Source: Rhodospirillales bacterium BBD 1991-14 (lineage in GTDB: Bacteria; Pseudomonadota; Alphaproteobacteria; Kiloniellales; Kiloniellaceae). From it: 64,000 nucleotides of DNA. Both the position numbers and the translations under genes were made by a program. The notes under the pieces were generated by a model. The model was not told the DNA's origin. It saw only the letters and a program-made list of their open reading frames with translations, and did not search any database. The DNA is taken from contig LYSY01000001.1 in the NCBI GenBank assembly GCA_001657395.1, positions 310,001 through 374,000 on the forward strand, written 5' to 3'. Shown piece by piece: positions 10,835 through 56,701 of the stretch (its first letter is position 1; every line of letters starts with the position of its first letter).

Positions 10835-12814
10835 TTAGGCGGCCTGCTCCTCGGCGGCCCGCTGCCAGCCGGCGACCAGGGTGGCGAAGCGCTGCGCCAT
10901 GACATTGACCGCGTCGTCGTCGCCCATCTCACCCTTCAGCCAGGCCCGTGCAGGTTCGGCGAAGATGCTGCGGCCAACGGCAAAACCTTTCACCAGGGGG
11001 TGGCGTGCAGCGAGCAGGAAAGAACTGGTCAGTTCCTCCAGCGGCCGCTCCAGGCCAAGCAGAAGAATGCCGCGGCAATGGGGATCGCGGGCCTCTATGG
11101 TTTCGCAGACCGCGCGCCAGGCGGCATCGTCGGCCAGCGGCTCCAGCTTCCACCAGTCCGGCGCCACGCCCAGGTCATAGAATCGGGCAATGGCCCGCGC
11201 CAGGGTCGTCTCGTCGACAGCGCCGTGACGGCTGGCAATCACTTCCAGCAGCAGTTCGTGACCGCTGCGCCGGCAGGCATCGAACAGCCGCACCACCTGG
11301 TCCTCCTGGGCGAGACGCAGGTCTTCGGGATCGTCCGGGTGATAGAAGACCAGGCATTTCACACAGTTGGTCAGCGGCCATTCGGCGAGCGCGCCGCCCA
11401 GGTCCGGCCCCTCTTCGAAAGTCAGCGGACGGGACCCCGGCAGCTCGATGGGCCGGCCGACCCAGAGGTCGCCTTCCGCGGCCGCGTGCAGCGCTTCGCG
11501 GCCGAGGCGGTCGTCAATGAGGACGCCGAAGCCCTCGCGGCCGTCGGCGACCTGTCGGGCGGCCCGCAGGGCCAGGGTCTTGAATTGCCCGATGGCAGCC
11601 TGATCCCGGCCGCATTCGCGCGCCAGGTCTTCGAGCTGGCTGCGGTGATCGACGGCGAGGATGCAGAGGTTGTCGTAGTGCTGCGGCCGGGTGGTTGCCC
11701 AGTGGACCCGGTTCAGATCCGGATCCAGCCGCAGGGCGCGATGGTCGCTGCCGTGTGCGAAGTAGTAGCTGAGCTCGGTCCAGGAGGGCACCGCCGGCGC
11801 GCAGCCATGGCGGGAGACGGCGAAGGCGCCACAGGCGTTGGCGAACTTGCAGCAGGTCTCCAGCGGCTCGTCGCGCAGCCAGCCGCGCAGGAAGCCACTC
11901 ATGAAAGCATCGCCCGCGCCCAGCACGTTGTAGACCTCCACCGGGAAGCCCGGGCCGGAGACGCCGTCTTCCAGGGAGTCCGGAATGGCGCCGGGAAAGA
12001 CGACACAGCCCATGGGCCCGCGCTTGCAGACGATGGTGGCATCGCTCAGGCGGCGCACGGTGCGGATCGCCTCCAGCGTGTCGGTGGTGCCGCCGGCGAT
12101 GTGCAGCTCTTCTTCGGTGCCGACGATCAGGTCGCAGAGCGGCAGGATGGTCTGCAGGTGCTCGGAGACGGCAGCGTTCTCGACAAAGCGCTCCTCGCCC
12201 AGGCCATGGCCGGTGAGGCCCCAGAGCACCGGGCGATAGTCGATGTCGAGCACCACCTTGCGCCCGGCCTCCCGCGCCAGCCTTGCGGCCTTGCGCGAGG
12301 CCGCTTCGACGCCGGGGGCCGAGAAGTGGGTGCCGGTGACCACCACGGCCTTGGCCGAAGCGATGTAGCCGGCATCGATGTCGTCTTCGCTGATCGCCAT
12401 GTCGGCGCAGTTCTCGCGGTAGAAGATCAGCGGAAAGCTGTCTTCATCCCGGATACCGAGAATGACCAGGGCCGTCAGCCGCTCCGGGTCTGTCTTCAGG
12501 TGGCTGGTATCCACTCCTTCGGCTATGAGCGTTTCGCGGATGAAGCGCCCCATGTGCTCGTCGCCGACGCGGCTGAGGAAGCCCGCCTTCAGACCCAGGC
12601 GCGCGGAGCCGACCGCAATGTTGGCGGGGCAGCCGCCGATGTACTTGGCAAAGCTGCCCATGTCCTCCAACCGTCCGCCGACCTGTTGTCCGTAGAGGTC
12701 GACAGAACAGCGCCCGATGGTGATGAGGTCGAGCGCAGCGCCTTTATCTTCTGCGTCCCTGTCCAATGCGTCCCTGTTCACGGTGCCCGGGTCCAATGAG
12801 TCCTCGCCCATCAT
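10835..12814 (-). CDS. iolC: Bifunctional 5-dehydro-2-deoxygluconokinase / DUF2090 aldolase-type protein
   Basis: A 659-aa two-domain protein. Residues about 28-340 form a PfkB/ribokinase-type sugar kinase (LDLITIGRCSVDLYGQQVGG, and the catalytic anion-hole motif GAGDAFMSGFLRG). Residues about 345-655 form a DUF2090 domain, a class I aldolase-like TIM barrel. In proteobacteria this fusion replaces the separate IolC kinase and IolJ aldolase: it phosphorylates 2-deoxy-5-keto-gluconate and probably cleaves the product to DHAP and malonate semialdehyde. The first ~27 residues are extra and charged; a later start cannot be excluded. First gene of the leftward iol operon. Confidence 0.93.
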   Translation of the reverse strand: MMGEDSLDPGTVNRDALDRDAEDKGAALDLITIGRCSVDLYGQQVGGRLEDMGSFAKYIGGCPANIAVGSARLGLKAGFLSRVGDEHMGRFIRETLIAEGVDTSHLKTDPERLTALVILGIRDEDSFPLIFYRENCADMAISEDDIDAGYIASAKAVVVTGTHFSAPGVEAASRKAARLAREAGRKVVLDIDYRPVLWGLTGHGLGEERFVENAAVSEHLQTILPLCDLIVGTEEELHIAGGTTDTLEAIRTVRRLSDATIVCKRGPMGCVVFPGAIPDSLEDGVSGPGFPVEVYNVLGAGDAFMSGFLRGWLRDEPLETCCKFANACGAFAVSRHGCAPAVPSWTELSYYFAHGSDHRALRLDPDLNRVHWATTRPQHYDNLCILAVDHRSQLEDLARECGRDQAAIGQFKTLALRAARQVADGREGFGVLIDDRLGREALHAAAEGDLWVGRPIELPGSRPLTFEEGPDLGGALAEWPLTNCVKCLVFYHPDDPEDLRLAQEDQVVRLFDACRRSGHELLLEVIASRHGAVDETTLARAIARFYDLGVAPDWWKLEPLADDAAWRAVCETIEARDPHCRGILLLGLERPLEELTSSFLLAARHPLVKGFAVGRSIFAEPARAWLKGEMGDDDAVNVMAQRFATLVAGWQRAAEEQAA

Positions 12815-42778: not shown

Positions 42779-43250
42779 CGCCAAGTCACGGTGTGGATTT
42801 GCTTTTTTGGCGATCACAGCGACGTTCTTGGGTTGATCCTTTAGATCACAATTACGCGTGCTGTGATCAATGCAGCGAAAGGGCCTATACGCCACTCATC
42901 TATGCCGCTATCATCAGAGTTCGGGGTTGATTGCAAGTCGTACTATTCAGAGTGGTAATTTTGCCAAAGTAAATCCTTTTGTTTGTTCTCTGGGGGGTTC
43001 TCTCAGCACTCTCGGGTGTAGCCGCATTTGGGGCCCCAAAAGGCAGTTTGATACTGCAAAGGACAAGAGGTCTGAAAGTGCGCGCCAGGGGCGTCCCAAG
43101 CAGGGGCGCGGAGACTGGGCGGAGACTGAAAACCGAAAGGTTTACTCCTTCCTGTTCGCTTGGTGCTGCATCGGGTTCAGTGGGGTTCACGCGCCTGCAA
43201 TTTAGCTCCGCTAGGTTGAGTTCATCACGGTCGTGGGAGAGGGAAGACCG
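42779..43250. promoter_or_regulatory. AT-richer control region upstream of a response regulator
   Basis: A 472-base region without a convincing gene. It is clearly less GC-rich than the rest of the window. It contains the inverted repeat GATCACA-N11-TGTGATC (42844-42850 and 42862-42868) and the perfect 14-base palindrome TTTGGGGCCCCAAA (43027-43040). Either could be an operator or, for the second, part of a transcript end. The region probably carries the promoter of the LuxR-type regulator. Confidence 0.5.
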
Positions 43251-43973
43251 ATGAGAATTGCCCTGGCAGACGATCATGAGCTTTTCCGGGCTGGTCTCGG
43301 TTCGGCACTGAAGGACGCCTTCGGTCCAGGAGCAGAGGTCCTGGAAGCCTGTGATCGTGCGAGCTTGGCTAAGATCATTGAAGCGGAACGCGACCTGGAT
43401 CTGGTCATCTGCGATCTGCGGATGCCGGGCATGGAGGCCGCCGACTGCATAGCGCAGCTGGTCCGTCTGAACCCGGCGGTTCCCTTCGCCATGGTTTCTG
43501 CCTCCGACGATCCTGCCGATGCCTGCAGGGCCATCAAGCAGGGTGCCAAAGGCTATATCCTGAAGAGCGATAGCCTGGCGGTTTTGCAGCACGCCCTGGA
43601 ACTGATCCTGGCCGGTGGAACCTACGCTCCGGTCCAGGCGCTCATTTCGGACACCCCGGCACCCTGCGGGCAGCGGCGGCCCTTGCCGGCTCTGCCGGCT
43701 TTGAGCAACCGCCAGCTTATGATCTTCGAGCGCCTGGCCGACGGTAAATCCAACAAGATCATCGCCCGGGAACTGGGGATCGCGGAGGGTACGGTCAAGG
43801 CACAGCTTCGCACCGTGTTCCGCAAGCTGGGCGTTGCCAACCGGGTGCAGGCCGCGCTGGTGGCCGCAGAAGTCCTGAATGCGTCGGCTGTGTCGGCGGA
43901 GGCCGACAAACCGCACGCGTCCGGCGGCGGCACGGTCGAAGAAAACGTCTATCCCTTCCCGAACCAGGCCTGA
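43251..43973 (+). CDS. Response regulator, NarL/FixJ family (REC-LuxR HTH)
   Basis: A 240-aa response regulator. The receiver domain spans about residues 1-118, with the phospho-acceptor Asp in DLVICDLRMPGMEAAD, the acidic pair in ALADDHELF and the lysine in YILKSDSLA. The LuxR HTH spans about 150-212 (LSNRQLMIFERLADGKSNKI, then GIAEGTVKAQLRTVFRKLG). It has no paired kinase in the window. It lies directly upstream of the amyloid-like locus, so it may participate in its control. ATG at 43251 after GGGAAGACCG. Confidence 0.92.
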   Translation: MRIALADDHELFRAGLGSALKDAFGPGAEVLEACDRASLAKIIEAERDLDLVICDLRMPGMEAADCIAQLVRLNPAVPFAMVSASDDPADACRAIKQGAKGYILKSDSLAVLQHALELILAGGTYAPVQALISDTPAPCGQRRPLPALPALSNRQLMIFERLADGKSNKIIARELGIAEGTVKAQLRTVFRKLGVANRVQAALVAAEVLNASAVSAEADKPHASGGGTVEENVYPFPNQA

Positions 43974-44161: not shown

Positions 44162-44177
44162 TGGCATGTCGCTTGCT
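44162..44177 (+). promoter_or_regulatory. Sigma-54 promoter (-24/-12)
   Basis: TGGCAT-GTCGC-TTGCT fits the sigma-54 consensus TGGCAY-N5-TTGCW at every position, with GG and GC separated by exactly 10 bases. It lies 74 bases upstream of the small secreted protein gene at 44252, giving a predicted transcript start near 44189. A sigma-54 activator gene is encoded 6.7 kb away at the other end of the locus. Confidence 0.85.
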
Positions 44178-44251
44178 TAACTTTGGGGCGAGTGGCCGTG
44201 GTAACGGTGCGGTGCTCGAGACCGGTCGCTCGGACCTGGGCGGGGGATGTG

Positions 44252-44563
44252 ATGAACATAAAGGTTGTTGGATCGCTCCTGGCCGTCAGCGCAGCTTTGC
44301 TTTTCTTTGCGGTGAGGGCGGGATCGGAGGATTTGCCGAGCGTGGCCGTTGCGTTTCTGGACGGTGAGACGGCAGCAGTCAGTGAAAACGAGTTGGACCG
44401 CCAGCAGGCAAAGGGCCTTTCGGATCAGGGATTTGAAGCGCCCGGCTCCGGCGGTGACTGGGGGGTCATTCTGTGGGACGAGGCAAGGCCGCCAAAGCCC
44501 GGTGCGCCGCCTGCGCCTCAGCCGGGCCAGGGACAGAGTTCCATTTCGACAAGCACGCGGTGA
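44252..44563 (+). CDS. Small secreted protein at the head of the amyloid-like locus
   Basis: A 103-aa protein. The signal peptide is residues 1-24 (KVVGSLLAVSAALLFFAVRA). The mature part is acidic and includes VSENELDRQQAKGLSDQGFE, then a Pro/Gly/Gln-rich tail. The segment around residues 43-55 resembles similar pieces in two other small secreted proteins of the locus (LSEERGKAF and EEEILEEQRGGF). It is directly under a sigma-54 promoter. A role as accessory subunit, cargo or chaperone of the fibre system is inferred from position. FapA occupies the first position in Pseudomonas, but I see no sequence resemblance. Confidence 0.75.
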   Translation: MNIKVVGSLLAVSAALLFFAVRAGSEDLPSVAVAFLDGETAAVSENELDRQQAKGLSDQGFEAPGSGGDWGVILWDEARPPKPGAPPAPQPGQGQSSISTSTR

Positions 44564-44795
44564 TGTCAGCCGGTGGCCCTGGCCGCATGGGTGACCGCGA
44601 AGCGACGGCGTTACAATCCTGAACGGGTGTAACGTCCCTGTAACACTCGCGGCAAGGACGCCGTGGGTCGCCTCGACCGCGGTCCGGTTCCCGGCAATTA
44701 AGGGGTAGAGCGGCTGACCCGAGGCCGGCCAGCGCGCGCGTGGTGTCGGCTGCCGGTGCCATCTGTTTCGTCGGGCATACAAAGCGTAAAGCAGA

Positions 44796-44834
44796 TGTAC
44801 GGCCTGTACAGCCGTCACCGCAGCGTGACGGCAC
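44796..44834. promoter_or_regulatory. Adjacent palindromes, candidate enhancer site for the sigma-54 activator
   Basis: TGTAC-N5-GTACA at 44796-44810 directly abuts GCCGTCAC-N6-GTGACGGC at 44811-44832. They lie 75-115 bases upstream of the sigma-54 promoter at 44909, the usual place for activator binding. The TGACGGCAC end also occurs upstream of the other sigma-54 promoter (44039-44047). The second palindrome could alternatively form a transcript-end hairpin for the upstream gene. Confidence 0.4.
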
Positions 44835-44908
44835 CTCGCTTCGACCCAACCTCCAGAAAAACACCCCAACACCCTGGGATTCATGGATTTCGGGCTGTGG
44901 CCCCGATG

Positions 44909-44924
44909 TGGCATGGCGGTTGCT
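44909..44924 (+). promoter_or_regulatory. Sigma-54 promoter (-24/-12) of the repeat-protein gene
   Basis: TGGCAT-GGCGG-TTGCT fits TGGCAY-N5-TTGCW fully, with 10 bases between GG and GC. It predicts transcription from about 44936, 160 bases before the repeat-protein start codon. It is the second such site within 750 bases in the same direction. Confidence 0.85.
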
Positions 44925-45096
44925 GTAAGGGTGGCAGGGGTGCGTGCGATGGACGGACTCCTGACCGGAAGGTCCCGTAGAGGTCGATCCCGGGGGCAAC
45001 CCAGGGAGCAAAGGTCCGTCGGGGTCGGCTTCCGGGGTACCAAACCCCCAGGGACGGGGGCAAAGGAACCGGATGAAGCATCAAGAGGAGAAAACC

Positions 45097-47418
45097 ATGA
45101 AGAAGTCTCTCATTGCGGGGGCCTCCGTCTTCGCACTGGTGGCGGGCTTTGGTTCTTCGGCCTATGCCGACGACATTAATGTCGCGGTTGGGCTGAATAC
45201 CCTGAATTCCACGGTTACCAACACGGCGACCGTTGAGGAAGACGGGGGTGAAAACCAGGGCATCGGTGGCGGTGGCCAGGAGTCTTTGAACAACAACTTC
45301 GGTGACAACACCTACGAGGACCAGGTTCTCAACCAGAACAACATCGACTCCGGCATCAACTCCGCTCAGCAGGGCGGCAATGCTGCGGCGATCGCGGTTG
45401 ACCAGGATGGTGTCGGTTTTGACATCGATCCGCCTGAATTCGACGCGAATCTGTCGATTGCCGGCAACATCGCTGACCAGGACGTCACCAACTCGGCGAC
45501 CGTGAATGCGGACGACGACAATCCGGATGATGACGGTGAAGAGTTCAACGGCATTGCCGGTGATGCGAACAACTCGCTGAACAACAATTTTGGTAGTGAC
45601 ACCTTCGACAAGCAGGTCATCAACCAGAACAACATCAACTCCGGCATCAATTCCGCCCAGCAGGGTGGCAATGCTGCCGCGTTGTCGGTTGATCTGGACG
45701 GCTCGGAAGATGAGCTGAGTGTCAACGCTGCCTTCTCGGGCAACTATCTGACCCAGGACGCAGAGAACGATGCCATTGTCAGTGATGCCGGCAACAACGG
45801 CGTCAACGAAGACAACGACGCGATCGCTGGTGAGGTCGATGACTCCCTGAGGAACACCTTCGGGACTCAGACTTTCGAGAACCAAGTTATCAATCAGAAC
45901 AACATCAATGCCGGTATCAACTCTGCTCAGCAGGGTGCGAACACGACCTCCATCGCAGCCAGTATCGGCGATCCCAACATCGATCTCGGTCCGGGCGACC
46001 CGGATCCTGAGACCGATGACGCGATTTCCGATGCCATTGATGCGATTGAGGACGCCCTGGCTTTCGACGTCGGTGGTGGCGGAATCGGCAATGTCGGGTC
46101 TGATGTCGAGGCCTTCGAAGGCAATGTCGCGGCTGCACGCTCGCAGGGTGAGCAGATCGTCGACAACAATGCCTTCAACAGCGGTGAAGGCGACGGCGGC
46201 GAAGAGGACAGCGGCATCGGCGGTGATCCGGAGCGTTCGTTGCACAACAACTTCGGCGACGACACCTTCCGGGCTCAGGCGATCAACCAGAACAACATCA
46301 ATTCTGGTATCAACTCGGCCCAGCAGGGTGCCAACACAACGGCCCTCGCAGTCGACACCGATGGTTCCTTCAACATTCTTGACGTGAACATCGCCGTCAC
46401 GGACTCGAATCAGTCGCAGGACTTCACGAACAACGCAGAAGCAAACGACAAAGAGAATGACGGTGTTGGCGGTTTCGATACCGACGGCAATCCGGTTCCG
46501 ACCGACTCGCTGTTCAATCTGTTTGGTGACAACACCTTCAAGGATCAAGTTATCAATCAGAACAACATCAATGCCGGTATCAACTCTGCTCAGCAGGGCA
46601 TGAACACGACATCGATGGCGATTGACGACTCGGGCAGCATTGCCGACATTAATGCAGCCTGGGCGAGCACCACGGGTTATCAGGTTGGTGACAACACCGC
46701 GACCGATGAGTCCGAAACCGCTGTCTTTGATGACACCGGCCTAGGCATTGGTGGCAATCCCTCCGATAACAACCTGAATAATGTTTTCGGGGAGTACACC
46801 TTCCAGGATCAGGCGATCAATCAGAACAACATCAACGCTGGCATCAATAACGCTCAACAGGGCGGAAACACCTCTGCTCTTGCGGTGGCCGACAACGTCA
46901 GCTTTGTGGATCTTAACCTGAGCGTCGCGTCGACCGATCTGGAGCAGGACGTGACCAACACGGCCTCTGTTAATGCTGACGACAGCGGTGGCGTTGGTGG
47001 CAACGCTGTCAGTGAGGGTGGCAACGGTCCGCTCAGCAATCACTTCGGCGACTACACCTTCCAGAACCAGGTGATGAACCAGAACAACATCAATTCTGGC
47101 ATCAACTCGGCTCAGCAGGGCGCCAACACGACTGCCCTGTCGCTGGACCTTGGAGGCCCGGGCGGCGTCGACCTGAATGGCGCAGTCAGCCTGGCGTCGT
47201 TGTCGCAGACGGTGACCAACTCGGCCTCTGCCATGGGCACCAACAATGGTGGTGTCGGCGGCGGTGCTGTGGGTGCGCTGAACAACAACTTCGGCAACTA
47301 TACCTTCCAGAACCAGGTGATGAACCAGAACAATATCAACTCTGGCATCAACTCGGCTCAGCAAGGCTCCAACACGGTTGCGATGGCCGTCAGCGGCGGC
47401 ACCTTCCCAGGGCCGTGA
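45097..47418 (+). CDS. Secreted Asn/Gln-rich repeat protein, candidate functional amyloid (FapC-like)
   Basis: A 773-aa protein with a signal peptide at residues 1-24 (cleaved after SSAYA) and no cysteine. Eight copies of a block like TFENQVINQNNINSGINSAQ followed by QGANTTALAV alternate with acidic, variable linkers rich in Asp, Gly and Thr. The final copy lies at the very C-terminus. Repeat spacing is 246-393 bases. Fap-type amyloids also combine several Asn/Gln-containing repeats with variable linkers, a C39 protease and an outer-membrane FapF, all present here. The start has AGAGGAG at 6-base spacing. Base composition is less GC-rich than the neighbours. Extracellular fibre subunit is the inferred role. 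Confidence 0.82.
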   Translation: MKKSLIAGASVFALVAGFGSSAYADDINVAVGLNTLNSTVTNTATVEEDGGENQGIGGGGQESLNNNFGDNTYEDQVLNQNNIDSGINSAQQGGNAAAIAVDQDGVGFDIDPPEFDANLSIAGNIADQDVTNSATVNADDDNPDDDGEEFNGIAGDANNSLNNNFGSDTFDKQVINQNNINSGINSAQQGGNAAALSVDLDGSEDELSVNAAFSGNYLTQDAENDAIVSDAGNNGVNEDNDAIAGEVDDSLRNTFGTQTFENQVINQNNINAGINSAQQGANTTSIAASIGDPNIDLGPGDPDPETDDAISDAIDAIEDALAFDVGGGGIGNVGSDVEAFEGNVAAARSQGEQIVDNNAFNSGEGDGGEEDSGIGGDPERSLHNNFGDDTFRAQAINQNNINSGINSAQQGANTTALAVDTDGSFNILDVNIAVTDSNQSQDFTNNAEANDKENDGVGGFDTDGNPVPTDSLFNLFGDNTFKDQVINQNNINAGINSAQQGMNTTSMAIDDSGSIADINAAWASTTGYQVGDNTATDESETAVFDDTGLGIGGNPSDNNLNNVFGEYTFQDQAINQNNINAGINNAQQGGNTSALAVADNVSFVDLNLSVASTDLEQDVTNTASVNADDSGGVGGNAVSEGGNGPLSNHFGDYTFQNQVMNQNNINSGINSAQQGANTTALSLDLGGPGGVDLNGAVSLASLSQTVTNSASAMGTNNGGVGGGAVGALNNNFGNYTFQNQVMNQNNINSGINSAQQGSNTVAMAVSGGTFPGP
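45280..47415 (+). repeat. Eight coding repeats of the Asn/Gln motif
   Basis: Units begin at about 45280, 45571, 45841, 46234, 46504, 46767, 47025 and 47271. Each encodes about 40 residues: L-x-N-x-F-G, then T-F-x-x-Q-x-x-N-Q-N-N-I, N-x-G-I-N-x-A-Q-Q-G-x-N-T. The core nucleotides (AACCAGAACAACATCAA) are almost invariant, and the linkers differ in length and sequence, so recombination or slippage between units is likely. Confidence 0.9.
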
Positions 47419-47455
47419 GGGGAGAATCCTGCGCTTAGTGTCTAAGTGCTCGGAT

Positions 47456-47483
47456 GGTGGGCGTTCCGATAGGAACGTCCACC
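47456..47483 (+). terminator. Hairpin between the repeat-protein gene and downstream genes
   Basis: A 12-base stem (GGTGGGCGTTCC with GGAACGTCCACC, one G-U pair) and a GATA loop lies 38 bases after the repeat-protein stop. It is followed by GC-rich sequence without a U-run, so it is likely a partial terminator or an RNA-stabilising element that gives more of the major subunit than of downstream gene products. Confidence 0.65.
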
Positions 47484-47526
47484 GCCCTGGCCCCAAAACA
47501 GTAAGCAAGCCTTGGGAGGCGTTGCT

Positions 47527-47907
47527 ATGAAGTACAGAAACCGAGTTCTCAGCCTTTCGGCCGCAGTCGTCGGCATCAGTTCTTTGCTGGGGGCGGTGCC
47601 GGCCCTGGCCGAAGATCTCTTTGACGGTTTGGGTGCCGTGACCCCGGAGGCCCTGTCCGAAGAACGAGGCAAGGCTTTCGAGATCGACGAAGATTCCCTG
47701 GCCACGGCGATCGGCGCGCAGTATCAGCACGTGACCTTCGACGGCATGGCGGCGGTCGGTTCCGGCGGCGAGATCCATCTGGGCAGCAACACCTTTGCCG
47801 ACCAGGTCATGTCGCTCAACGTCATGAATACCGGAAACAATGTCGCTCTGCAGAATCAGAACGTTGTTGCGGTGACCGTCATCGAAAGCAGTGTGAGCTT
47901 GCCATGA
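47527..47907 (+). CDS. Secreted protein with one amyloid-type motif (FapB-like minor subunit candidate)
   Basis: A 126-aa protein. The signal peptide is residues 1-28 (SLSAAVVGISSLLGAVPALA). Residues 89-118 (TFADQVMSLNVMNTGNNVAL, then QNQNVVAVTV) align without gaps to the eight repeats of the upstream 773-aa protein: T-F-x-x-Q-V-M-x-x-N-x-x-N-x-G-x-N-x-A-x-Q-x-x-N-x-V-A. The N-terminal part contains LSEERGKAF, similar to segments in two other locus proteins. It has a GGGAGG ribosome site at 7-base spacing and overlaps the protease gene by 4 bases. A nucleator or capping subunit is the inferred role. Confidence 0.78.
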   Translation: MKYRNRVLSLSAAVVGISSLLGAVPALAEDLFDGLGAVTPEALSEERGKAFEIDEDSLATAIGAQYQHVTFDGMAAVGSGGEIHLGSNTFADQVMSLNVMNTGNNVALQNQNVVAVTVIESSVSLP

Positions 47908-48647
47908 CCGTCGTTTCACATCCGCTGCAAAGCCGCTTCCGGCGGGGCTTCTTGGCTCTTGCTTGTGCGCTTCCCATCGTGGGGGCGCTTTGCCTGGTCA
48001 ATGCCTCCGCCGAAGCCGGTGAAACCCGCTTCGTTTCGGCGGGCGGGATGGCCTTCAATCTGAAGGTCAAGAGCGTAAAGGAACGTAAGTGGGAGTCCGT
48101 TGTCCGGCAGGAGCGCGACTTCTCCTGCGGATCGGCGGCGGTTGCGACCCTTTTGACCTATCACTACGACCGCCCGACCGAGGAGGTCGAGGTCTTCGAA
48201 GCCATGTTCGCTGTCGGTGACCGGCAGAAGATCATGGCGCAGGGCTTTTCCCTCCTGGACATGAAGCGCTTTCTCGATGCCCGCGGTTTCACGGCCGATG
48301 GTTTCCGCGTTTCCATGGACAAGTTGGCGGAGGTCGGCGTGCCGGCCATCGTGTTGCTCGACATTCGCGGCTACAAGCACTTCGTGGTCGTCAAGGGCGT
48401 GACGCCGCATCACGTTCTGGTGGGCGATCCGTCGCGCGGCATTCAGCGATACAAGCGCCGCGATTTCGAGAAGCTGCTGGCCAACGACATCGTCTTTGTC
48501 GTCCGTACCCAGGTGGAACTCGCGAAAGCGAACTTCAATCTGGAGGACGAATGGAGTGCTCATCCTCAGGCGCCTCTGGGGCCGGCGGTGAGCTCCAGCA
48601 ACCTGGCCAACATCACCATCTACCTGCCGGGTACGGGCGCCCGATAA
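47904..48647 (+). CDS. C39 family cysteine peptidase (FapD-like)
   Basis: A 247-aa exported peptidase. An N-terminal signal or anchor spans about residues 14-36 (GFLALACALPIVGALCLVN). The C39 domain spans about 60-190, with catalytic Cys75 in RDFSCGSAAVATLLTYHY, His159 in YKHFVVVKGV and Asp175 in VLVGDPSRG. Fap operons include such a protease, FapD, needed for export of the amyloid subunits; the position beside the subunit genes fits. Unlike bacteriocin exporters it is not fused to an ABC transporter. The ATG overlaps the upstream stop as ATGA. Confidence 0.9.
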   Translation: MTVVSHPLQSRFRRGFLALACALPIVGALCLVNASAEAGETRFVSAGGMAFNLKVKSVKERKWESVVRQERDFSCGSAAVATLLTYHYDRPTEEVEVFEAMFAVGDRQKIMAQGFSLLDMKRFLDARGFTADGFRVSMDKLAEVGVPAIVLLDIRGYKHFVVVKGVTPHHVLVGDPSRGIQRYKRRDFEKLLANDIVFVVRTQVELAKANFNLEDEWSAHPQAPLGPAVSSSNLANITIYLPGTGAR

Positions 48648-48659
48648 GGGAGACATCCG

Positions 48660-49286
48660 ATGACGACACTCATTGCTGTATCAGCGATCAGACGGTTCAG
48701 TATGGATGCCGCCGCTGTTCTGCGGAGCGTTGCGGCGGTCGTCGGTCTGGCCATGGCCACCGCAGCCTGCTCCGGTACGGGTGCGATCACCCAAGCCGGC
48801 CAGCCGTTTGGGGAGGGAAGCGGGAACGTATTGATGGCCATGGCGACAGGAAAGGCCATCGACCCGCAGGAGGTTGTCGAAGAAGAGATTCTCGAGGAAC
48901 AGCGCGGCGGCTTTCTGACCGTTGGCGGACTTCAGGTCAACTTTGGCTTTGAGTTCACCACCTTGGTGAACGGAACGCCTCAACTCACTTCGGTGCTGAC
49001 TTTGAACGATATCGTGAGTGGCAACGGCGTTGTTCCCAGCTTGAACAACATCTCAATCTCCGGTGCGGATGGCGGTATTACGGAGATCATCCATGCGGCC
49101 GGGCCGGACGGCATCAGCGCCACCATTCTCAACTCACAAAACGGAATCGATATCGAGAACATTTCAACGCTCGCAATCGACATCATTGGACTGCGCAACG
49201 TACACAAGGGCGGGCGCGCGCTCGGCAATGGCCGGCGTATGCCCATGGAGATGCAACAGGCCCTGATTCGCGGTCTATCGAGGTGA
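48660..49286 (+). CDS. Secreted protein with RGGF motif (FapE-position)
   Basis: A 208-aa protein. A membrane-targeting segment at about residues 17-36 ends with ATAACSG, possibly a weak lipobox. EEEILEEQRGGFLTVGGLQV (residues 74-93) resembles a double-glycine leader and the widespread '..L..RGGF...G' motif of small secreted proteins. The rest is beta-rich and rich in Asn/Ile/Gly (LNNISISGADGGITEIIHAA, NGIDIENISTLAIDIIGL). It has a GGGAGA ribosome site and follows the protease by 12 bases. It takes the place of FapE in Pseudomonas, but similarity is not established. Confidence 0.75.
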   Translation: MTTLIAVSAIRRFSMDAAAVLRSVAAVVGLAMATAACSGTGAITQAGQPFGEGSGNVLMAMATGKAIDPQEVVEEEILEEQRGGFLTVGGLQVNFGFEFTTLVNGTPQLTSVLTLNDIVSGNGVVPSLNNISISGADGGITEIIHAAGPDGISATILNSQNGIDIENISTLAIDIIGLRNVHKGGRALGNGRRMPMEMQQALIRGLSR

Positions 49287-49339
49287 GTGGAGGCTAGAAC
49301 GCGCAGGATGCGCTCATTCGTTAGGTTCTATTGTTCGAT

Positions 49340-49372
49340 GAAAAAGGGGCCCCTCGGGGCCCCTTTCTTTTG
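49340..49372. terminator. Bidirectional Rho-independent terminator
   Basis: AAAAAGGGGCC...GGCCCCTTTCTTTT forms a strong GC stem flanked by an A-run and a T-run on both sides. It stands between the convergent ends of the rightward fibre genes (stop at 49286) and the leftward porin gene (stop at 49417), so it can end transcription in both directions. Confidence 0.9.
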
Positions 49373-49416
49373 TTCGGTCGACGCTGTCTTCGCGACGGCG
49401 CCGCAGGCGCGCTTGC

Positions 49417-50805
49417 TCAGTCGAAGGCGTTGCCCAGATCGAAGGTGACCGGCGTCCGTAGGGTCAGCACCACATCCGGGGCGTCGTCGGTGACGCCAAC
49501 CTGGGTGTTCAGATTGAGGTTGATCTGGTCCGTGAGGGCGTAGGAAAAGCCGAGGCTGAGGCGGCCGACGTCGAAGTCTTCCGACTCCACCGTCACTCCG
49601 TCGATTTCCTGTTCGGTCTCGAAGACAAAGTCGTGCGCATAGCCGACGCTGAAAGAGGCGCGTTCGTTCAGGGCAAAGCCCATGCCGAAGCCGAAACCGA
49701 CGACATCGCCCGGCTGCACGTCGCCGATCTCCGATCCGCCGATGGTTTCGTCCACGTCCTTTCCGAAGCTGTGCGTGTAGCTGACGCTTCCGAAGAAGAC
49801 GACGGGGTCGGAGGGATAGATCACCGTCAGTCCGGGTTGCACAGCCCAGAAGCCGGAGCCGGTCGACAGCTCGGTTTCGAGTCCATCGTCGTCTCGGTCC
49901 ACGTCAAAGGGACCCTGGCCGCTGTCCGATTTCACCCGGGCGTTGGCGACGAAAATCGGCCAGTCATCCAGTCCGTCGTTGATCTGGTAGCGGCCGCTGA
50001 ACTCGATATCGCCCAGATTGGCCGCATCGGGGCTGCTGCTCACCGCGCCGCCGGCGCCGATAACTTCTTGCGTGATCTCATCACTGCGGTAGACGAAGGG
50101 AACCTTCAGCTCGACCTCGGCCCGGTTGGTGATGCCGTAGCGCAGAGTGCCGGCAGCCGTAATCGTCTGGCGCTCGGCATCCGAAACCTCGATATCGCCG
50201 ACCAGGACCGTTTCGATGATTTCGACGCCGTCGAAAAAGAAGCGGGTGCTGTCCGTGCTCTCGAACTCGATCGAGGGCTCGAACACAAGGTTGCCCTTTC
50301 GGGTCAGCACGCCGCCGACGTCCTGGACCCCGGAGACATCGATCCGCCGCCGCTGCGCGTCGGGGTCTTCCTCGCCCACCGGCCGGTCCGGCGCGCCCTG
50401 ATTCTGTGGTGCGCCCTGGCCCTGCGGCTGACCCTGCTGTCCTTGGGACTGTCCCTGGTTCTGGCCCTGCTGGGCGACCTGGCCGGGTTGTCCCTGGTAG
50501 TCGGCATAGCTGTAGTTGGGGGATCCGGGCTGGTAACCCGGCTGTCCCACGCCGGCGATGCCGCGGATTGCATTCTCCAGCTGGTCGATCCGGCGCTGCT
50601 GCGCCTCGATCTGTGCGCGCTGAACCTGGATAAGATCGAAGAGCTGCTCAACGGTCACCGGCGCCGTGGGCTGTGTCGCTGTGGACTGTCCGGTTTCCTG
50701 TGCGTAGGAAGCGCTGCTCATCAGAGCAACACAGAGCCCGACGCCGCTCCCCAAAACGACGCGCTTGAGCGCCGATGTCTCAGATGACGATGGCACGAAT
50801 CCCAT
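49417..50805 (-). CDS. Outer-membrane protein with N-terminal coiled coil (FapF-like)
   Basis: A roughly 462-aa exported protein. After the signal peptide (VVLGSGVGLCVALMSSASYA) comes a coiled coil at about residues 45-75 (EQLFDLIQVQRAQIEAQQRR), then a Gly/Gln/Pro-rich linker. A C-terminal domain of alternating strands follows (NLVFEPSIEFESTDSTRFFF, TLRYGITNRAEVELKVPF), ending VVLTLRTPVTFDLGNAFD with a terminal aromatic region. FapF, the amyloid-exporting trimeric porin, has this architecture. The ATG at 50805 is favoured over a GTG at 50829 because the latter lacks a ribosome site. It lies convergent to the fibre genes and 138 bases after the activator gene on the same strand. Confidence 0.82.
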   Translation of the reverse strand: MGFVPSSSETSALKRVVLGSGVGLCVALMSSASYAQETGQSTATQPTAPVTVEQLFDLIQVQRAQIEAQQRRIDQLENAIRGIAGVGQPGYQPGSPNYSYADYQGQPGQVAQQGQNQGQSQGQQGQPQGQGAPQNQGAPDRPVGEEDPDAQRRRIDVSGVQDVGGVLTRKGNLVFEPSIEFESTDSTRFFFDGVEIIETVLVGDIEVSDAERQTITAAGTLRYGITNRAEVELKVPFVYRSDEITQEVIGAGGAVSSSPDAANLGDIEFSGRYQINDGLDDWPIFVANARVKSDSGQGPFDVDRDDDGLETELSTGSGFWAVQPGLTVIYPSDPVVFFGSVSYTHSFGKDVDETIGGSEIGDVQPGDVVGFGFGMGFALNERASFSVGYAHDFVFETEQEIDGVTVESEDFDVGRLSLGFSYALTDQINLNLNTQVGVTDDAPDVVLTLRTPVTFDLGNAFD

Positions 50806-50943
50806 AAGCTGACTCGGCTCCCCCCTCACTCATGCGCCACTATCACCGCGAAATCGGCACAAATCAAGGCTCAGGTGAGGGTCTTCAGGTTCGAAATGCG
50901 GCCGCGGTGCGTTTGCGCAAGCGGGCGCTCCAAGGGCGGCCGG

Positions 50944-52233
50944 TTAGTGTGCAGAGGGGGCACCCTGTCCGCGGATGCTGTACTTTTCGATCAAGCGATA
51001 GAGCGTGACCCTTGAAACCCCAAGGTCACGTGCGGCGACAGTGATGTTGTGCGCGTGCTTGCCCAGCGCATCACGCACCAGCTTCTCTTCGATCTTGGCC
51101 TTTGCCTGTTCCAGCGTCGTTGCGGATTCCGATGCAGCCGCAAGCTCGGCGCAAGGCTCCGGAGCGCGCGAGACCCGGGTTGCCGCAGCAATTCCGCCAA
51201 GATCGATCTGCGGCAACGAATCGACACCAGCCGCCGCGCGGCTTGGGGTCTCCGCCGCGGCCCCGGGCCCGGTCGCGAGACCCAGATCCTCCGCCGTCAG
51301 CCGGTCGCTGTCCGTCATCACCACGGCGCGGCGCACCTTGCTGATCAGTTCGCGGACGTTCCCCGGCCAGTGATAGCGCTGCATCGCCGAGAGAGCGTCT
51401 TCGGAAAGGAAGCGGTTCTCGACCTGCATCTCCGCCGCAAAGCGTTTGGCGAAGAACGCACCCACGAGGGTGATGTCCTCGCCGCGTTCGCGCAGCGGCG
51501 GCAGGTTGAGGGTGAGGCAGTTCAGCCGATGGAAAAGGTCTTCGCGGAACTGTTCCTTGCGGATCATGCGATCCAGGTTCCGGTTCGTCGCCGCTATCAC
51601 GCGGCAGTTCAGGAGGATCGGCGTGTTGCTGCCCACTCTCTCGATCGTTTGCTCCTGCAGGAACCGCAGCAGGTGGGGCTGCAATTCCAGGGGCATGTCG
51701 CCGATCTCGTCCAGGAACAGCGTGCCGCCGTTTGCCGCTTCCAGTTTGCCGATCTTGCGCTGGTGCGCACCGGTAAAGGCGCCTTTCTCGTGACCGAAGA
51801 GTTCCGAGGCCACGAGAGAGGCCGGGAGGCCGCCGCAGTTGATGGCAACGAAGGGCCCATCGGCATAGGCCGATCGCTCGTGGATTGCCAGAGCAGCGAG
51901 CTCTTTTCCGGTTCCGCTTTCTCCCTGAATTAGGACCGGCGCGCGGGGCAGGGCAAATCTGCGGATTGTGTTGAAGACGGTCTGCATGGCCGGGCTTTCG
52001 CCCACCATATGCGGTTCGACGGGTTCCGCCACGGTGGCGGCAGCGGGGAGAGACCGCGCCTTTGCGCATCGTGGCTGTGGGGCGTCGCCGGAAGCCGGTT
52101 TCGCAGCCGGTAACAGGGCGCGAATCAACTGAGCAAGCCCCGCGTCACTGCGGCCGAGCTTCACGACCAGCTCCGCAAGGGCCTGGTGATCTCGGCTCAA
52201 CACCTCATCGCGGGTGAGTTCTCGGTCGGTCAT
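50944..52233 (-). CDS. Sigma-54-dependent transcriptional activator
   Basis: A 429-aa activator. The AAA+ domain spans about residues 76-310, with Walker A GESGTGKE at 104-111, the sigma-54-contacting GAFTGA loop at 151-156, Walker B GGTLFLDEIGD at 169-179 and the FREDLFHRLN sensor. A C-terminal Fis-type HTH (HNITVAARDLGVSRVTLYRL) completes it. The N-terminal ~70 residues form no known receiver, PAS or GAF domain, so input is unclear; the nearby response regulator may act instead. Two perfect sigma-54 promoters in the neighbouring locus are obvious targets. Confidence 0.93.
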   Translation of the reverse strand: MTDRELTRDEVLSRDHQALAELVVKLGRSDAGLAQLIRALLPAAKPASGDAPQPRCAKARSLPAAATVAEPVEPHMVGESPAMQTVFNTIRRFALPRAPVLIQGESGTGKELAALAIHERSAYADGPFVAINCGGLPASLVASELFGHEKGAFTGAHQRKIGKLEAANGGTLFLDEIGDMPLELQPHLLRFLQEQTIERVGSNTPILLNCRVIAATNRNLDRMIRKEQFREDLFHRLNCLTLNLPPLRERGEDITLVGAFFAKRFAAEMQVENRFLSEDALSAMQRYHWPGNVRELISKVRRAVVMTDSDRLTAEDLGLATGPGAAAETPSRAAAGVDSLPQIDLGGIAAATRVSRAPEPCAELAAASESATTLEQAKAKIEEKLVRDALGKHAHNITVAARDLGVSRVTLYRLIEKYSIRGQGAPSAH

Positions 52234-53618: not shown

Positions 53619-54938
53619 TCAGTTTTCCCGCCAAGCCTTGGTGATGCTGTCTTGCAGGGGCTGGACCAGGTAGTCCAGGGCGGTCCGTTCGCCGGTCTTG
53701 ATCATCACGTCGGCGGGCATGCCCGGGCGTAGAACCCGCTCTTCGCCGAGGCGCGCGACCTCCTCTTCGGGGATCGAGATGCGGGCTAGGTAATAGGCTT
53801 CGCCGCTGCGCTCGTCCTCGAAGCGGTCGGCGGAGAAATAGGCAACGCTGCCGATCAGCTTCGGCGTGGTCCGCTGCGAAAAGGCGGTGAACATCACATC
53901 GGCTTCGAGACCGAGCGCCAGGCTGTCGACGTCGAAGGGCAGGACCCGCGCCTCGACGATCAGGTCGTCGTCGACCGGCACCAGCTCCAGGATCGTCGCG
54001 CCGGGCTGCACCACCTGACCCGGCGCATAGACCTGCAGACCGACCACCACGCCGTCTTCTGGGGCGCGTATCTCCAGGTTGTCCAGAACGAACTGGGAGG
54101 CGGCGACCCGCTCTCTCAGATCGAAGACTTCCGTACGCAGATCGCGCAGTTCCAGTTCGACCTTTTCGCGGCTGTCCTTGCGGAGCTGGAGGATTTCCAG
54201 TTCGGCCTGGCTGATCGAGGTCTTGGCCGCCGCGATTTCCGCGATGTGCTCGCCCCGCTCGCCGCCGAGGCGGGCCGCCTCCCGCTCCAGGGCCAGGACC
54301 TTGTTCTTCTCCGCAAAGCCCTTCTCGAGGAGCTTGCGCAGCCCGTCCAGTTCCTCGCCGATCAGCGCAATCTGGCGTTCCTTGGCCTCCTGCTGGGCGC
54401 GCAGGCCGCGGATCTGTTCCCCGACCTGGCCGATCCGCTCCTCATAGATCCTGATCTCCCCCTGCAAGGTGTCGCGCCGCGCCGCGAAGAGGCTTTGCTG
54501 ACCCCGCAGGCTGTCGCCCAGCTGGGGCTCGTCCTGCCGCGCCAGGAGCTCCGCCGGGAAAACGATGGTCTCTGCCTCGTCGCGCTCCGCCATCAGGCGC
54601 GCTTCGTTCGCCTGCGCCTCGTCCAGCTTGGCCTTGAGGATGACGAGCGAGGCCTGGGCGCGGGTCTCGTCGAGCCGCACCAGCAGCGCATCCCGCTCGA
54701 CGGCGTCGCCATTGCGCACCAGGATCTGCTTCACGATCCCGCCCTCCATGTGCTGGATGGCCTTGCGGTTGCTGTCTACCGTCACCTTGCCGGAGGCGAT
54801 GACGGCGGAAGAGAGTTCGGCGGTCGCGGCCCAGCCGAAGAAGCCGGCGAAGGTCAGGGTGACGACGGTAATCCCGGCGATGACGATCGGCAGCACGCGG
54901 GTCGGCGCCGCCTTTGGTGGGGTGGCAGGCTGTGTCAT
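53619..54938 (-). CDS. HlyD family type I secretion periplasmic adaptor
   Basis: A 439-aa membrane-fusion protein. One N-terminal helix spans about residues 14-34 (IVIAGITVVTLTFAGFFGWA). The lipoyl-type half-motif SGKVTVDSNRKAIQHMEGGI is followed by long coiled-coil stretches (about 95-290) and ends with a second lipoyl half (APEDGVVVGLQVYAPGQVVQ) and a beta-barrel. It connects the inner-membrane ATPase to an outer-membrane TolC protein, which is not in this window. It overlaps the ATPase gene by 4 bases and is last in the operon. Confidence 0.94.
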   Translation of the reverse strand: MTQPATPPKAAPTRVLPIVIAGITVVTLTFAGFFGWAATAELSSAVIASGKVTVDSNRKAIQHMEGGIVKQILVRNGDAVERDALLVRLDETRAQASLVILKAKLDEAQANEARLMAERDEAETIVFPAELLARQDEPQLGDSLRGQQSLFAARRDTLQGEIRIYEERIGQVGEQIRGLRAQQEAKERQIALIGEELDGLRKLLEKGFAEKNKVLALEREAARLGGERGEHIAEIAAAKTSISQAELEILQLRKDSREKVELELRDLRTEVFDLRERVAASQFVLDNLEIRAPEDGVVVGLQVYAPGQVVQPGATILELVPVDDDLIVEARVLPFDVDSLALGLEADVMFTAFSQRTTPKLIGSVAYFSADRFEDERSGEAYYLARISIPEEEVARLGEERVLRPGMPADVMIKTGERTALDYLVQPLQDSITKAWREN

Positions 54939-56701
54939 GACGATACTGCCTCGGCTGCGGCGGCAGCCTTGCTTCTGGCGTCCGCAGCCGCATCTCTCGG
55001 TGCCGCCTTGGGTACAGCCTTGGTGACCTTGGGCATGACCTCCTCGCGCGGTCCGAACTGTTCGATCAGGCCGTCGCGCAGGACCAGGAGCTTGTCCATG
55101 CCGGCCAGGACCGAGGGGCGGTGCGCGATCACCACCAGGGTCGTGCCGCCTGCCTTGAGTTCGGCGACGGCCTTGCGCAAAGCCTCTTCGCCGTCGCCGT
55201 CGAGGTTGGAATTGGGTTCGTCGAGCACGATGAAGGCGGGCTCGCCGTAGAGTGCGCGGGCCAGGCCGATACGCTGGCGCTGGCCGCCGGAAAGCGCCGC
55301 GCCGCCCTGTCCGATGACCGTGTCGTAGCCCTGCGGCAGGCGCAGGATCATCTCGTGGACGTTGGCCCGTTGGGCGGCGCGCACGATCTTCTCCGGGTCG
55401 CCCGCCCCGAAACGGGCGATGTTTTCAGCGACCGTCCCGTCGAAGAGCTCAACGTCCTGGGGCAGGTAGCCGAGGGCGGGCCCCAGCAGCACGTGATCCC
55501 AGTCGCTGATGTCGGCGCCGTCCAGCCTTACGTTTCCCGCCGCAGGCGCCCAGACGCCGATGAGCAGCCGGGCGAGGGTCGACTTGCCAGCGGCGCTCGG
55601 CCCGATCACGCCGAGGCTCTCGCCGGGGCTGAGCGCAAAGGAAATGCCCTTGATAACCGGCTTGTCGAGGCCCGGCGGCGCGGCGACGAGGCGTTCCACC
55701 GCCAGGGCGCCTTTGGGCCGCGGCAAGGGCAGGCACTCTTCAGGTTGCTTTTCCTGGGCGAGAAAGCCTTTGAGGCGGCCGTGGGCGCTGCGCGCCAGAA
55801 TGAAGCTGCGCCAATGGCCGATGGCACCCTCGACCGGCGCCAGCGCGCGGCCCATGATGATCGAGGCGGCGATCATCACACCGGGCGTGATGATCTGCTG
55901 CAGCGCCAGATAGGCACCGGTCCCGAGAATGGCGACCTGGAGAGCCGGGCGGACGAACTTGGCCGCGGCGGTGAGCAGTCCGCCGCGGTCGCTGGCTTGC
56001 GCTTGTGCCGCCAGGGCGGCCTGGTGGCGCTGCCGCCAGCGCTGCCGCAGGGCCGGCATCATGCCCATGGCCTCGATCACCTCAGCATTGCGCAGCGTGT
56101 TCTCCGTGAAGCTATGGGCGGCAGCGCTGTCCGCAGAGGCATCGCGCAGCGGACCCCGGGTCGTCAGCTCGCTGATCACGGCCAGCGTGAAGAGGATCAC
56201 CGCTCCGCCCAGGGCGACCAGCCCCAGCAGGGGATGCAGCAGGAAGATGATGGCCAGGAAGAGGGGAGTCCAGGGTGCATCGAAGAAGGAGATCAGGCCG
56301 TTTCCGGTCAGGAAGCCGCGCAGGCTTTCCAGGTCGCGCAGGGGCTGGGCTTCGCCACCCTCGTTCTGCCGCAGGCGCCGGCGCAGCAGGCCGCTGAACA
56401 GCGTGTCGCTGAGCGAGCTGTCCAGCCGCGACCCGATGCGCACCAGAATGCGGGCCCGCACGAATTCCAGCAGAGCACTGGTCAGAATCATGCCGATGGC
56501 GACCACCGTCAGCATAATCAGGGTGTAGCGGCTGCCGGAGCTCAGCACGCGGTCGTAGACCTGCAGCATGTAAAGCGGGCCGGTCAGCATCAGCAGATTG
56601 ATGAAGAAGCTGAAGAAGCCCACCGAAAAGAACGTGCTGCGCACGCGCTGGAGCGCCTCTGAGAGGGGGTTCTGGCCCTGTTTTCGTACCGCTTTGGTCA
56701 T
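54935..56701 (-). CDS. Type I secretion permease/ATPase (PrtD family)
   Basis: A 588-aa fused permease-ATPase. The membrane domain covers about residues 20-310. In the nucleotide-binding domain Walker A is GPSAAGKSTLARLLIG, the signature is LSGGQRQRIGLARALYGEPA, and Walker B reads FIVLDEPNSNLD. It lacks the C39-like N-terminus, so it is the PrtD/RTX-protease exporter type and suits a large RTX cargo. The cargo, the 1710-aa nuclease, is encoded 98 bases upstream. The C-terminal ~30 residues are Ala/Lys-rich. Confidence 0.95.
   Translation of the reverse strand: MTKAVRKQGQNPLSEALQRVRSTFFSVGFFSFFINLLMLTGPLYMLQVYDRVLSSGSRYTLIMLTVVAIGMILTSALLEFVRARILVRIGSRLDSSLSDTLFSGLLRRRLRQNEGGEAQPLRDLESLRGFLTGNGLISFFDAPWTPLFLAIIFLLHPLLGLVALGGAVILFTLAVISELTTRGPLRDASADSAAAHSFTENTLRNAEVIEAMGMMPALRQRWRQRHQAALAAQAQASDRGGLLTAAAKFVRPALQVAILGTGAYLALQQIITPGVMIAASIIMGRALAPVEGAIGHWRSFILARSAHGRLKGFLAQEKQPEECLPLPRPKGALAVERLVAAPPGLDKPVIKGISFALSPGESLGVIGPSAAGKSTLARLLIGVWAPAAGNVRLDGADISDWDHVLLGPALGYLPQDVELFDGTVAENIARFGAGDPEKIVRAAQRANVHEMILRLPQGYDTVIGQGGAALSGGQRQRIGLARALYGEPAFIVLDEPNSNLDGDGEEALRKAVAELKAGGTTLVVIAHRPSVLAGMDKLLVLRDGLIEQFGPREEVMPKVTKAVPKAAPRDAAADARSKAAAAAEAVSS

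Follow-up and report, generated by a model that had tools for sequence, protein, structure and literature searches.

A probable sister-branch member of the Fap functional-amyloid system in a marine alphaproteobacterium

The DNA analyzed here (the window, 64,000 nucleotides long) comes from contig LYSY01000001.1 of the marine Rhodospirillales bacterium BBD 1991-14 and carries a cluster of genes for secreted repeat proteins and their putative export, which can probably be placed in a sister branch of Fap, the functional-amyloid system of Pseudomonas (fapABCDEF). Sequence comparison shows that the locus combines FapD and FapF homologues with a FapB-related minor subunit of a single repeat, a FapE-like protein, a major subunit with eight repeats, and a sigma-54 activator, and such components occur together in many genera. 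The original prediction had read the locus as a divergent Fap-type amyloid system containing a 773-residue secreted protein, a minor secreted protein, a stand-alone C39 protease, two other small secreted proteins, a barrel protein and a sigma-54 activator. All of these genes are present as open reading frames, and three points go beyond that reading: the wide sister clade, a leader motif, and the FapE-like nature of the 208-residue protein. Secretion signals of the window proteins were called by eye.

The prediction of a Fap-type export machinery was borne out by both of its parts. The C39 protein matched the NCBIfam FapD model with an expectation value (E) of 4.5e-48 and 163 bits (cut-off 330), and the barrel protein matched the FapF model with E 3.3e-49 and 168 bits (cut-off 700); residues 165-462 of the latter also matched the solved FapF (PDB 5o67, E 7e-36, phmmer). 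Both are far under the family cut-offs, and by these scores the two proteins are relatives of FapD and FapF and not equivalogs. The related C39 peptidase and barrel of a putative pilus system, NCBIfam FilB and FilC, to which the comparison with that system was confined, scored lower (E 6.5e-34 and 7.5e-21, respectively). The Cys, His and Asp described earlier as intact are Cys75, His159, and Asp175, none of which varies among 18 aligned sequences (that of the window among them), and the protein is without an ABC transporter part. N-terminal to the barrel, a coiled-coil segment and a Q/G-rich linker were read by eye, in agreement with the prediction. The PTG gate motif of FapF was mixed among the porins (43 of 86 were missed by the pattern and two had DSG), and no conclusion was drawn from it.

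Related loci (L numbers; genomes carry G numbers) were chosen by C39 or FapD matches alone. A profile scan of genome contigs with the C39 alignment gave at least 590 relatives, the best 80 of which were combined with the window and 22 fetched regions into 103 sources, including five duplicates and some contigs that end early; start codons are unsure for many open reading frames in the fetched loci. A FapF-like gene lies beside the C39 gene in 94 of these sources, an activator was found in 69, and the FapB-like and FapE-like profiles each matched in 101. Because both profiles had been refined iteratively with one set of fetched loci and cross-match each other, the names FapB-like and FapE-like rest on gene position and on separate profile comparisons. 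In the C39 tree (114 rows), all 17 canonical FapD rows lay beyond a branch with support 100/99, and 94 rows, the window among them, formed a clade supported by 100/98; a quick FapF tree (105 rows) likewise set 16 canonical rows (100) against 86 (99), with L026, L041, and L040 apart in both trees. Thirteen fetched regions supplied the canonical rows, together with L027 and the second copies of L071 and L093; the FapE model had matched 18 of 349 genomes in the phylum (two of the 18 alphaproteobacterial), and the 13 regions were drawn from these. Of the 94 non-redundant sister-clade loci, 89 could be assigned a FapB-like gene and 93 a FapE-like one. The window shows the arrangement of this branch, with the FapB-like gene directly before and the FapE-like gene directly after fapD, and with its FapD and FapF in the sister clade. 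Members were found in alpha-, beta-, and gammaproteobacteria and in Geobacteraceae, two Acidithiobacillus rows and one Photobacterium plasmid row fell inside the C39 clade, and a Vibrio plasmid carries FapB-, FapD-, FapE-, and FapF-like genes of the sister type. Within the genus of the window, sister-type loci are present in G001, G002, G004, and G006, and the FapD model was unmatched in G005 and G007; overall it matched in 17 of 58 genomes (the window's own included), two of the matches being weak and lying in frames of 726 and 742 residues. The FapE-like profile matched 10 of 385 alphaproteobacterial genomes, again with the window's own included.

As predicted from the letters, the major subunit is rich in Asn and Gln (together 22%) and repetitive, with eight 38-residue cores whose starts lie 82-131 residues apart; the 30-residue motif reported earlier holds as the conserved core but not as the full repeat unit, which spans ~82-131 residues. 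The 126-residue minor subunit indeed contains one copy, scoring 34.3 bits against the major subunit (best of 200 composition shuffles, 3.2). The repeat sequence departs from that of Fap, as had been stated: no credible match to the major subunit was found in Pfam, NCBIfam, or PDB, nor to the 126- and 208-residue proteins in Pfam or NCBIfam, NCBIfam FapB and FapC had no match at E 1 for the repeat proteins of the window, none of the FapB, FapC, and FapE models fits, and the published minimal pattern X15GX4NX3GX6NX7 is absent from the window proteins, which have eight repeats and one instead of three. Profile comparison linked the 126-residue family to canonical FapB (92.4%, E 5.3e-7; reversed control 0.0%) and placed the FapB-like core in register with the canonical Fap repeats (75.9%, E 2.3e-5; 33.0% under another alignment setting). 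Homology between the major repeats and those of Fap is therefore indirect, with the minor subunit of the window as the connecting link. Eight repeats are also present in congeners G001, G002, and G006 (one in the locus of G004), and the major subunit is 68% identical, end to end, to that of L048 (Pelagibius sp. isolate PL25a_bin.83). Elsewhere the repeat profile counted 14 copies in L042 (frame cut by the contig end), eight in L046, four in two Acidithiobacillus loci, and one or none in many others. In 14 of the 17 loci picked for visual inspection, a long chain rich in Gly or in Asn/Ser was seen to end in a repeat-like tail; these include Halomonadaceae and Oxalobacteraceae, whose tails the repeat profile left unscored.

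This diversity of the major proteins, from Gly-rich chains in Oxalobacteraceae and Halomonadaceae to between one and at least 14 repeats elsewhere, together with the missing direct match of the window repeats to the Fap repeat, would suit a FapD-FapF-type exporter of a non-amyloid surface layer or adhesin, whose repeat protein is soluble or filamentous and not a cross-beta amyloid. We consider this unlikely in view of the register between the FapB-like family and the canonical repeats, the relatedness of the minor-subunit copy to the major repeats, and the regular Asn/Gln-rich repeats, which suit amyloid cores. Even less probable, in our estimate, is an ordinary canonical Fap operon that acquired its differences by sequence drift alone, without a separate branch. 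Its components are much alike, and Acidithiobacillus and Vibrio systems of similar look were filed under Fap in 2013 (PMC3792158). Drift is opposed by the separate, well-supported clades in the C39 and FapF trees and by the presence of both types side by side in two Halomonadaceae loci (L071 and L093), with C39 genes ~7 kilobases (kb) apart and activator genes beside both; in L093 the two C39 genes scored 284 and 131 bits with the FapD model. Congener G003 (L027, G003:C98, 247-7313) has a canonical-type fap operon instead, whose FapC and FapE match the NCBIfam models below cut-offs, and at E 0.01 the NCBIfam Fap models matched none of the 48 FapE-like and 35 FapB-like proteins scanned (of 93 and 89). 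That an aromatic-degradation-type uptake porin merely stands beside a bacteriocin-type peptidase, with the repeat protein there by coincidence, is scarcely credible and largely refuted by the sequence evidence: the barrel does pass the cut-off of Pfam Phenol_MetA_deg (E 3.7e-5, 24.3 bits vs. 22), but its FapF matches are far stronger, its gene adjoins the C39 gene in most sources, the C39 protein lacks the transporter part, and FapF itself resembles such uptake channels (PMC6173800).

The sister-branch reading also draws on the leader of the FapE-like proteins, to which the 208-residue protein belongs. NCBIfam FapE did not match this protein, and the comparison of leader regions between FapE-like and canonical FapE proteins gave 88% over 31 columns. 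RGG is present in 82 of the 93 FapE-like proteins (shuffled mean 13.4, maximum 21), and the looser motif hydrophobic-x-x-x-R-[GA]-x in 90 (shuffled mean 21.4); as controls, the looser motif was found in 34 of 96 porins (shuffled 24.9), 18 of 76 activators (34.6), and 4 of 94 C39 proteins (23.7). When the 93 were aligned without trimming, the R (98%) and the two G (96% and 92%) ranked among the four most conserved columns, and Leu (83%) and Phe (78%) lie next to them. A further comparison used 48 of 66 FapE-like proteins; its RGG invariance is biased because Halomonas proteins with RAG were among those left out, and the shuffle counts and the untrimmed alignment give the fairer figures. In canonical FapE, the leader [RH]-G-[RK] was read in 17 of 17 proteins, with E at -8 in 16. 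Fourteen of them were anchored (12 found in the 13 canonical regions with our own profiles, and two more; L153 and L160 gave none), and all 14 have D-10, E-8, L/M-7, R/H-3, G-2, R/K-1, and F/Y+1; the further proteins L132, L134, and L137 agree, except for Val-8 in L137. L137 is the FapE from the genome of L153, and the FapE match in the genome of L160 has an internal stop and was left out. The looser leader could also be anchored in 84 of the 89 members of the 126-residue family (the anchor favours the motif), where plain RGG occurs in 19 (shuffled mean 5.8, maximum 14). The window's FapE-like leader, EEILEEQRGGF, has Leu-7 and RGG (Gly-2, Gly-1), and an AlphaFold2 model of this protein with a moderate mean predicted local distance difference test (pLDDT) score of 69.8 places a helix at residues 12-19, ending at the RGG (19-21), and strands after it; a Foldseek search of the model against PDB returned no match at E 0.001.

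Double-glycine leaders follow the pattern LSxxELxxIxGG, with E-8, L/M-7, a hydrophobic residue at -4, and G-2, G-1 ahead of the cut. The leader described here resembles, at the level of this family pattern, those cut by C39 peptidases, and therefore predicts a FapD cleavage site. C39 transporters differ from the window's system, in which the peptidase is a secreted protein with no ABC transporter attached and its supposed substrates begin with Sec signals. Secretion of FapC needs the active-site Cys of FapD, and the study reporting this found canonical C39 sites absent from Fap proteins, named GG/GA motifs in FapE and FapF as candidates, and suspected FapE as the FapD substrate (PMC5557850); a 2018 review still regarded the substrate as yet to be determined (PMC6173800). 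FapE as a substrate is thus an earlier suggestion from 2017, and the R-G-[GRK] leader as the putative cut site is new here.

A neighbouring sigma-54 activator, which the original prediction counted among the peculiarities of this locus, also occurs in canonical systems: activator homologues adjoin 11 of the 13 canonical regions fetched, and fap of P. fluorescens is under RpoN and brfA, a downstream reverse gene (PMC9207406). The activator of the window contains a sigma-54 interaction domain. Sigma-54-like sites with at most one mismatch start at 44162, which the original prediction took as the start of the locus, and at 44909, with like places in four congeners. Their number alone, two consensus matches in 64 kb, does not exceed chance (shuffled mean 1.5), and these sites are favoured for their position and their upstream recurrence in the four congeners. 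Where at least 1.5 kb of upstream sequence was available (76 of the 94 sister loci), a site on the operon strand was found in 35 and one on the other strand in 3, with 2.6 expected. BrfA itself is reportedly, by the title of a later paper only, an activator that senses cyclic diguanylate.

Several observations weigh against the sister-branch reading or its proposed cleavage step. The window's FapE-like leader carries Ile-8 and Gln-4, the corresponding leader is RGK in the minor subunit and AKG in the 103-residue protein, and the FapE-like core past the leader scored 0.6% against the FapE core, leaving the leader region as the sole link. In strain UK4, FapE alone was without N-terminal peptides over its first ~70 residues, and FapA-D, FapB and FapC included, were without signs of processing (PMC5557850); the motif in L150 would predict ~40 residues, which is shorter than the ~70-residue gap. 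The window repeats lie outside the published Fap repeat pattern, scored a non-significant 2.5% against the canonical repeat profile and only 0.9% against the FapB-like core profile, and the in-register result for that core drops with the alignment setting, as given above. The AlphaFold2 model of the mature major subunit with one relative was poor (mean pLDDT 43.4, low-confidence strands in each unit) and was not used. Among the canonical stretches, 8 of 14 had no sigma-54-like site at all. Finally, everything in the case for the sister branch, fibres and cleavage included, is drawn from sequence.

Under the sister-branch reading, the activator and RpoN would switch on the two sigma-54 sites, and the secreted proteins would cross the inner membrane via Sec. 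The periplasmic FapD would then cut the FapE-like protein after its R-G-G-like leader, in the manner of cytosolic C39 peptidases acting on double-glycine leaders; the minor subunit and the 103-residue protein may be cut likewise, and the major subunit appears to be without such a leader. Cutting would free the FapE-like protein (in this genus from a lipid anchor, if the lipobox is real) and license export via FapF, after which the major subunit would fold outside the cell, each repeat forming one layer of an amyloid-like surface fibre, for which the one-repeat protein and the FapE-like protein would act as seed or anchor. A broader proposal, for which we see even chances, is that a second, separately evolving Fap secretion system extends across the Proteobacteria and exports very different major proteins (Asn/Gln repeats or Gly-rich chains), and that FapD serves both as a periplasmic peptidase of double-glycine leaders, cutting after R-G-[GRK] in FapE and, in the sister branch, also in the minor subunit and the 103-residue family.

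The window shares with Pseudomonas Fap (fapABCDEF, RpoN, BrfA) the FapD and FapF homologues, major and minor repeat subunits, a FapE-like protein with a like leader, and a reverse, downstream sigma-54 activator. It differs in that the major subunit gene precedes the minor one, the major subunit has eight repeats of another sequence and not three (the minor has one), no FapA was seen in the window, fapF is convergent and not within a single fapABCDEF operon, the leader is RGG and not RGR/RGK, and FapD and FapF fall into separate clades. Part of what the original prediction took for novelty had been described: fapF is detached in 4 of the 16 genera of a 2013 survey, which knows a missing fapA as a deviation as well, and Acidithiobacillus and Vibrio have 4-16 FapC repeats and one or two FapB repeats (PMC3792158). 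These last variants are like the window in their repeat numbers, but have another repeat sequence and lineage and were published as Fap deviations and not as a branch. In 2013, Fap was limited to beta-, gamma-, and deltaproteobacteria (PMC3792158); fapD-fapF pairs were later listed in five more phyla (PMC6173800) and fap across many Pseudomonadota families (PMC12822426), nearly always with three repeats (PMC12822426, PMC12392863). Among open-licence papers in PubMed Central, none was found that names the sister branch, an alphaproteobacterial Fap locus of the window's form, or an R-G-[GRK] FapD site. Already known are thus the detached fapF, RpoN control via a neighbouring activator, and raised repeat numbers, and new, as far as searched, are the sister branch as such and the conserved N-terminal leader of its FapE-like proteins that recurs in canonical FapE. 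The sister branch would show the FapD site in its plain form, RGG, and therefore points to RGR/RGK in canonical FapE; it would qualify the view of Fap as fixed at three repeats (PMC12822426) and offer natural designs of long repeat fibres.

Table 1. Features of the Fap-like locus and its surroundings, in window positions
Feature	Position	Strand	Remarks
Whole locus		+, then -	Order on +: response regulator, 103-residue protein, major subunit, minor subunit, C39 peptidase, 208-residue protein; then on -: barrel, sigma-54 activator
NarL/LuxR-type response regulator	43233..43973	+	Pfam Response_reg and GerE; upstream
Sigma-54-like site TGGCATGTCGCTTGC	44162..44176	+	One mismatch; ahead of 103-residue gene; counterpart in four congeners
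103-residue secreted protein	44252..44563	+	Leader-like ELDRQQAKG, GVILWDE motif
Second sigma-54-like site TGGCATGGCGGTTGC	44909..44923	+	Ahead of major subunit gene; counterpart in four congeners
Major subunit (FapC-like), 773 residues	45097..47418	+	Signal peptide by eye; eight Asn/Gln repeats
Eight 38-residue repeat cores, span	45286..47391	+	Starts 45286, 45577, 45847, 46240, 46510, 46774, 47032, 47278
Minor subunit (FapB-like), 126 residues	47527..47907	+	One repeat; leader-like ALSEERGKA at 47650-47676
FapD-like secreted C39 peptidase	47904..48647	+	Cys75, His159, Asp175; NCBIfam FapD match
FapE-like protein, 208 residues	48660..49286	+	Lipobox-like N-terminus (ATAAC); leader ILEEQRGGF at 48888-48914
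FapF-like outer-membrane exporter (putative)	49417..50829	-	Convergent; 470 residues, or 462 from inner ATG; coiled coil, Q/G-rich linker, barrel
Sigma-54 enhancer-binding protein	50944..52233	-	Pfam PF00158, E 2.8e-68; placed like Pseudomonas BrfA

Some further genes and loci deserve a brief account. Homologues of the response regulator lie near the locus in four congeners (L029, L030, L031, and L032; E 3.4e-73 or better), and we are unsure whether it forms part of the Fap-like system. The 103-residue protein was considered as FapA and ruled out, since it does not resemble the gene that precedes fapB in L148, L149, and L150. Its family combines a [VI]xLWDE-like motif with a leader-like RGRY or similar, is also found near fapB in several canonical regions, and may represent a further fap gene; besides the window protein, members lie at L093:14616-15146 (no NCBIfam match), L158:8001-8444 and 12269-12703, and L160:7757-8251. 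Long Gly-rich secreted chains, with tails that look Fap-repeat-like by eye and are unscored by the profile, are encoded upstream of the FapB-like gene in L045, L062, L071, L077, L093, L104, L111, and L124. In L171 (Vibrio plasmid NZ_CP071844.1), the C39 frame at 8914-9592 is split over two open reading frames, and one alphaproteobacterial genome has four FapE-like profile matches clustered at G473:C4:94386-97102. L158 (G142:C78) holds two canonical fap gene sets in tandem and a third, short match to the FapE model, and fragments of a canonical set (a gene of the 103-residue family, a 97-residue barrel piece, and an activator) stand beside the sister-type locus at L102:14809-16838. A second, distant FapD/FapF-like pair lies by RTX-like Gly/Asp repeat genes in the window's own genome (G000:C1, ~79900-82100; L026:8914-11088, - strand) and in G002 (L041:9046-11238); the FapB-like and FapE-like profiles had no match there, and the pair is possibly a third type of C39-barrel exporter. 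Downstream of the locus, beyond a DUF547 gene, window positions 53619-56701 (- strand) encode an HlyD-like adaptor and an ABC transporter, named by eye, with the look of type I secretion.

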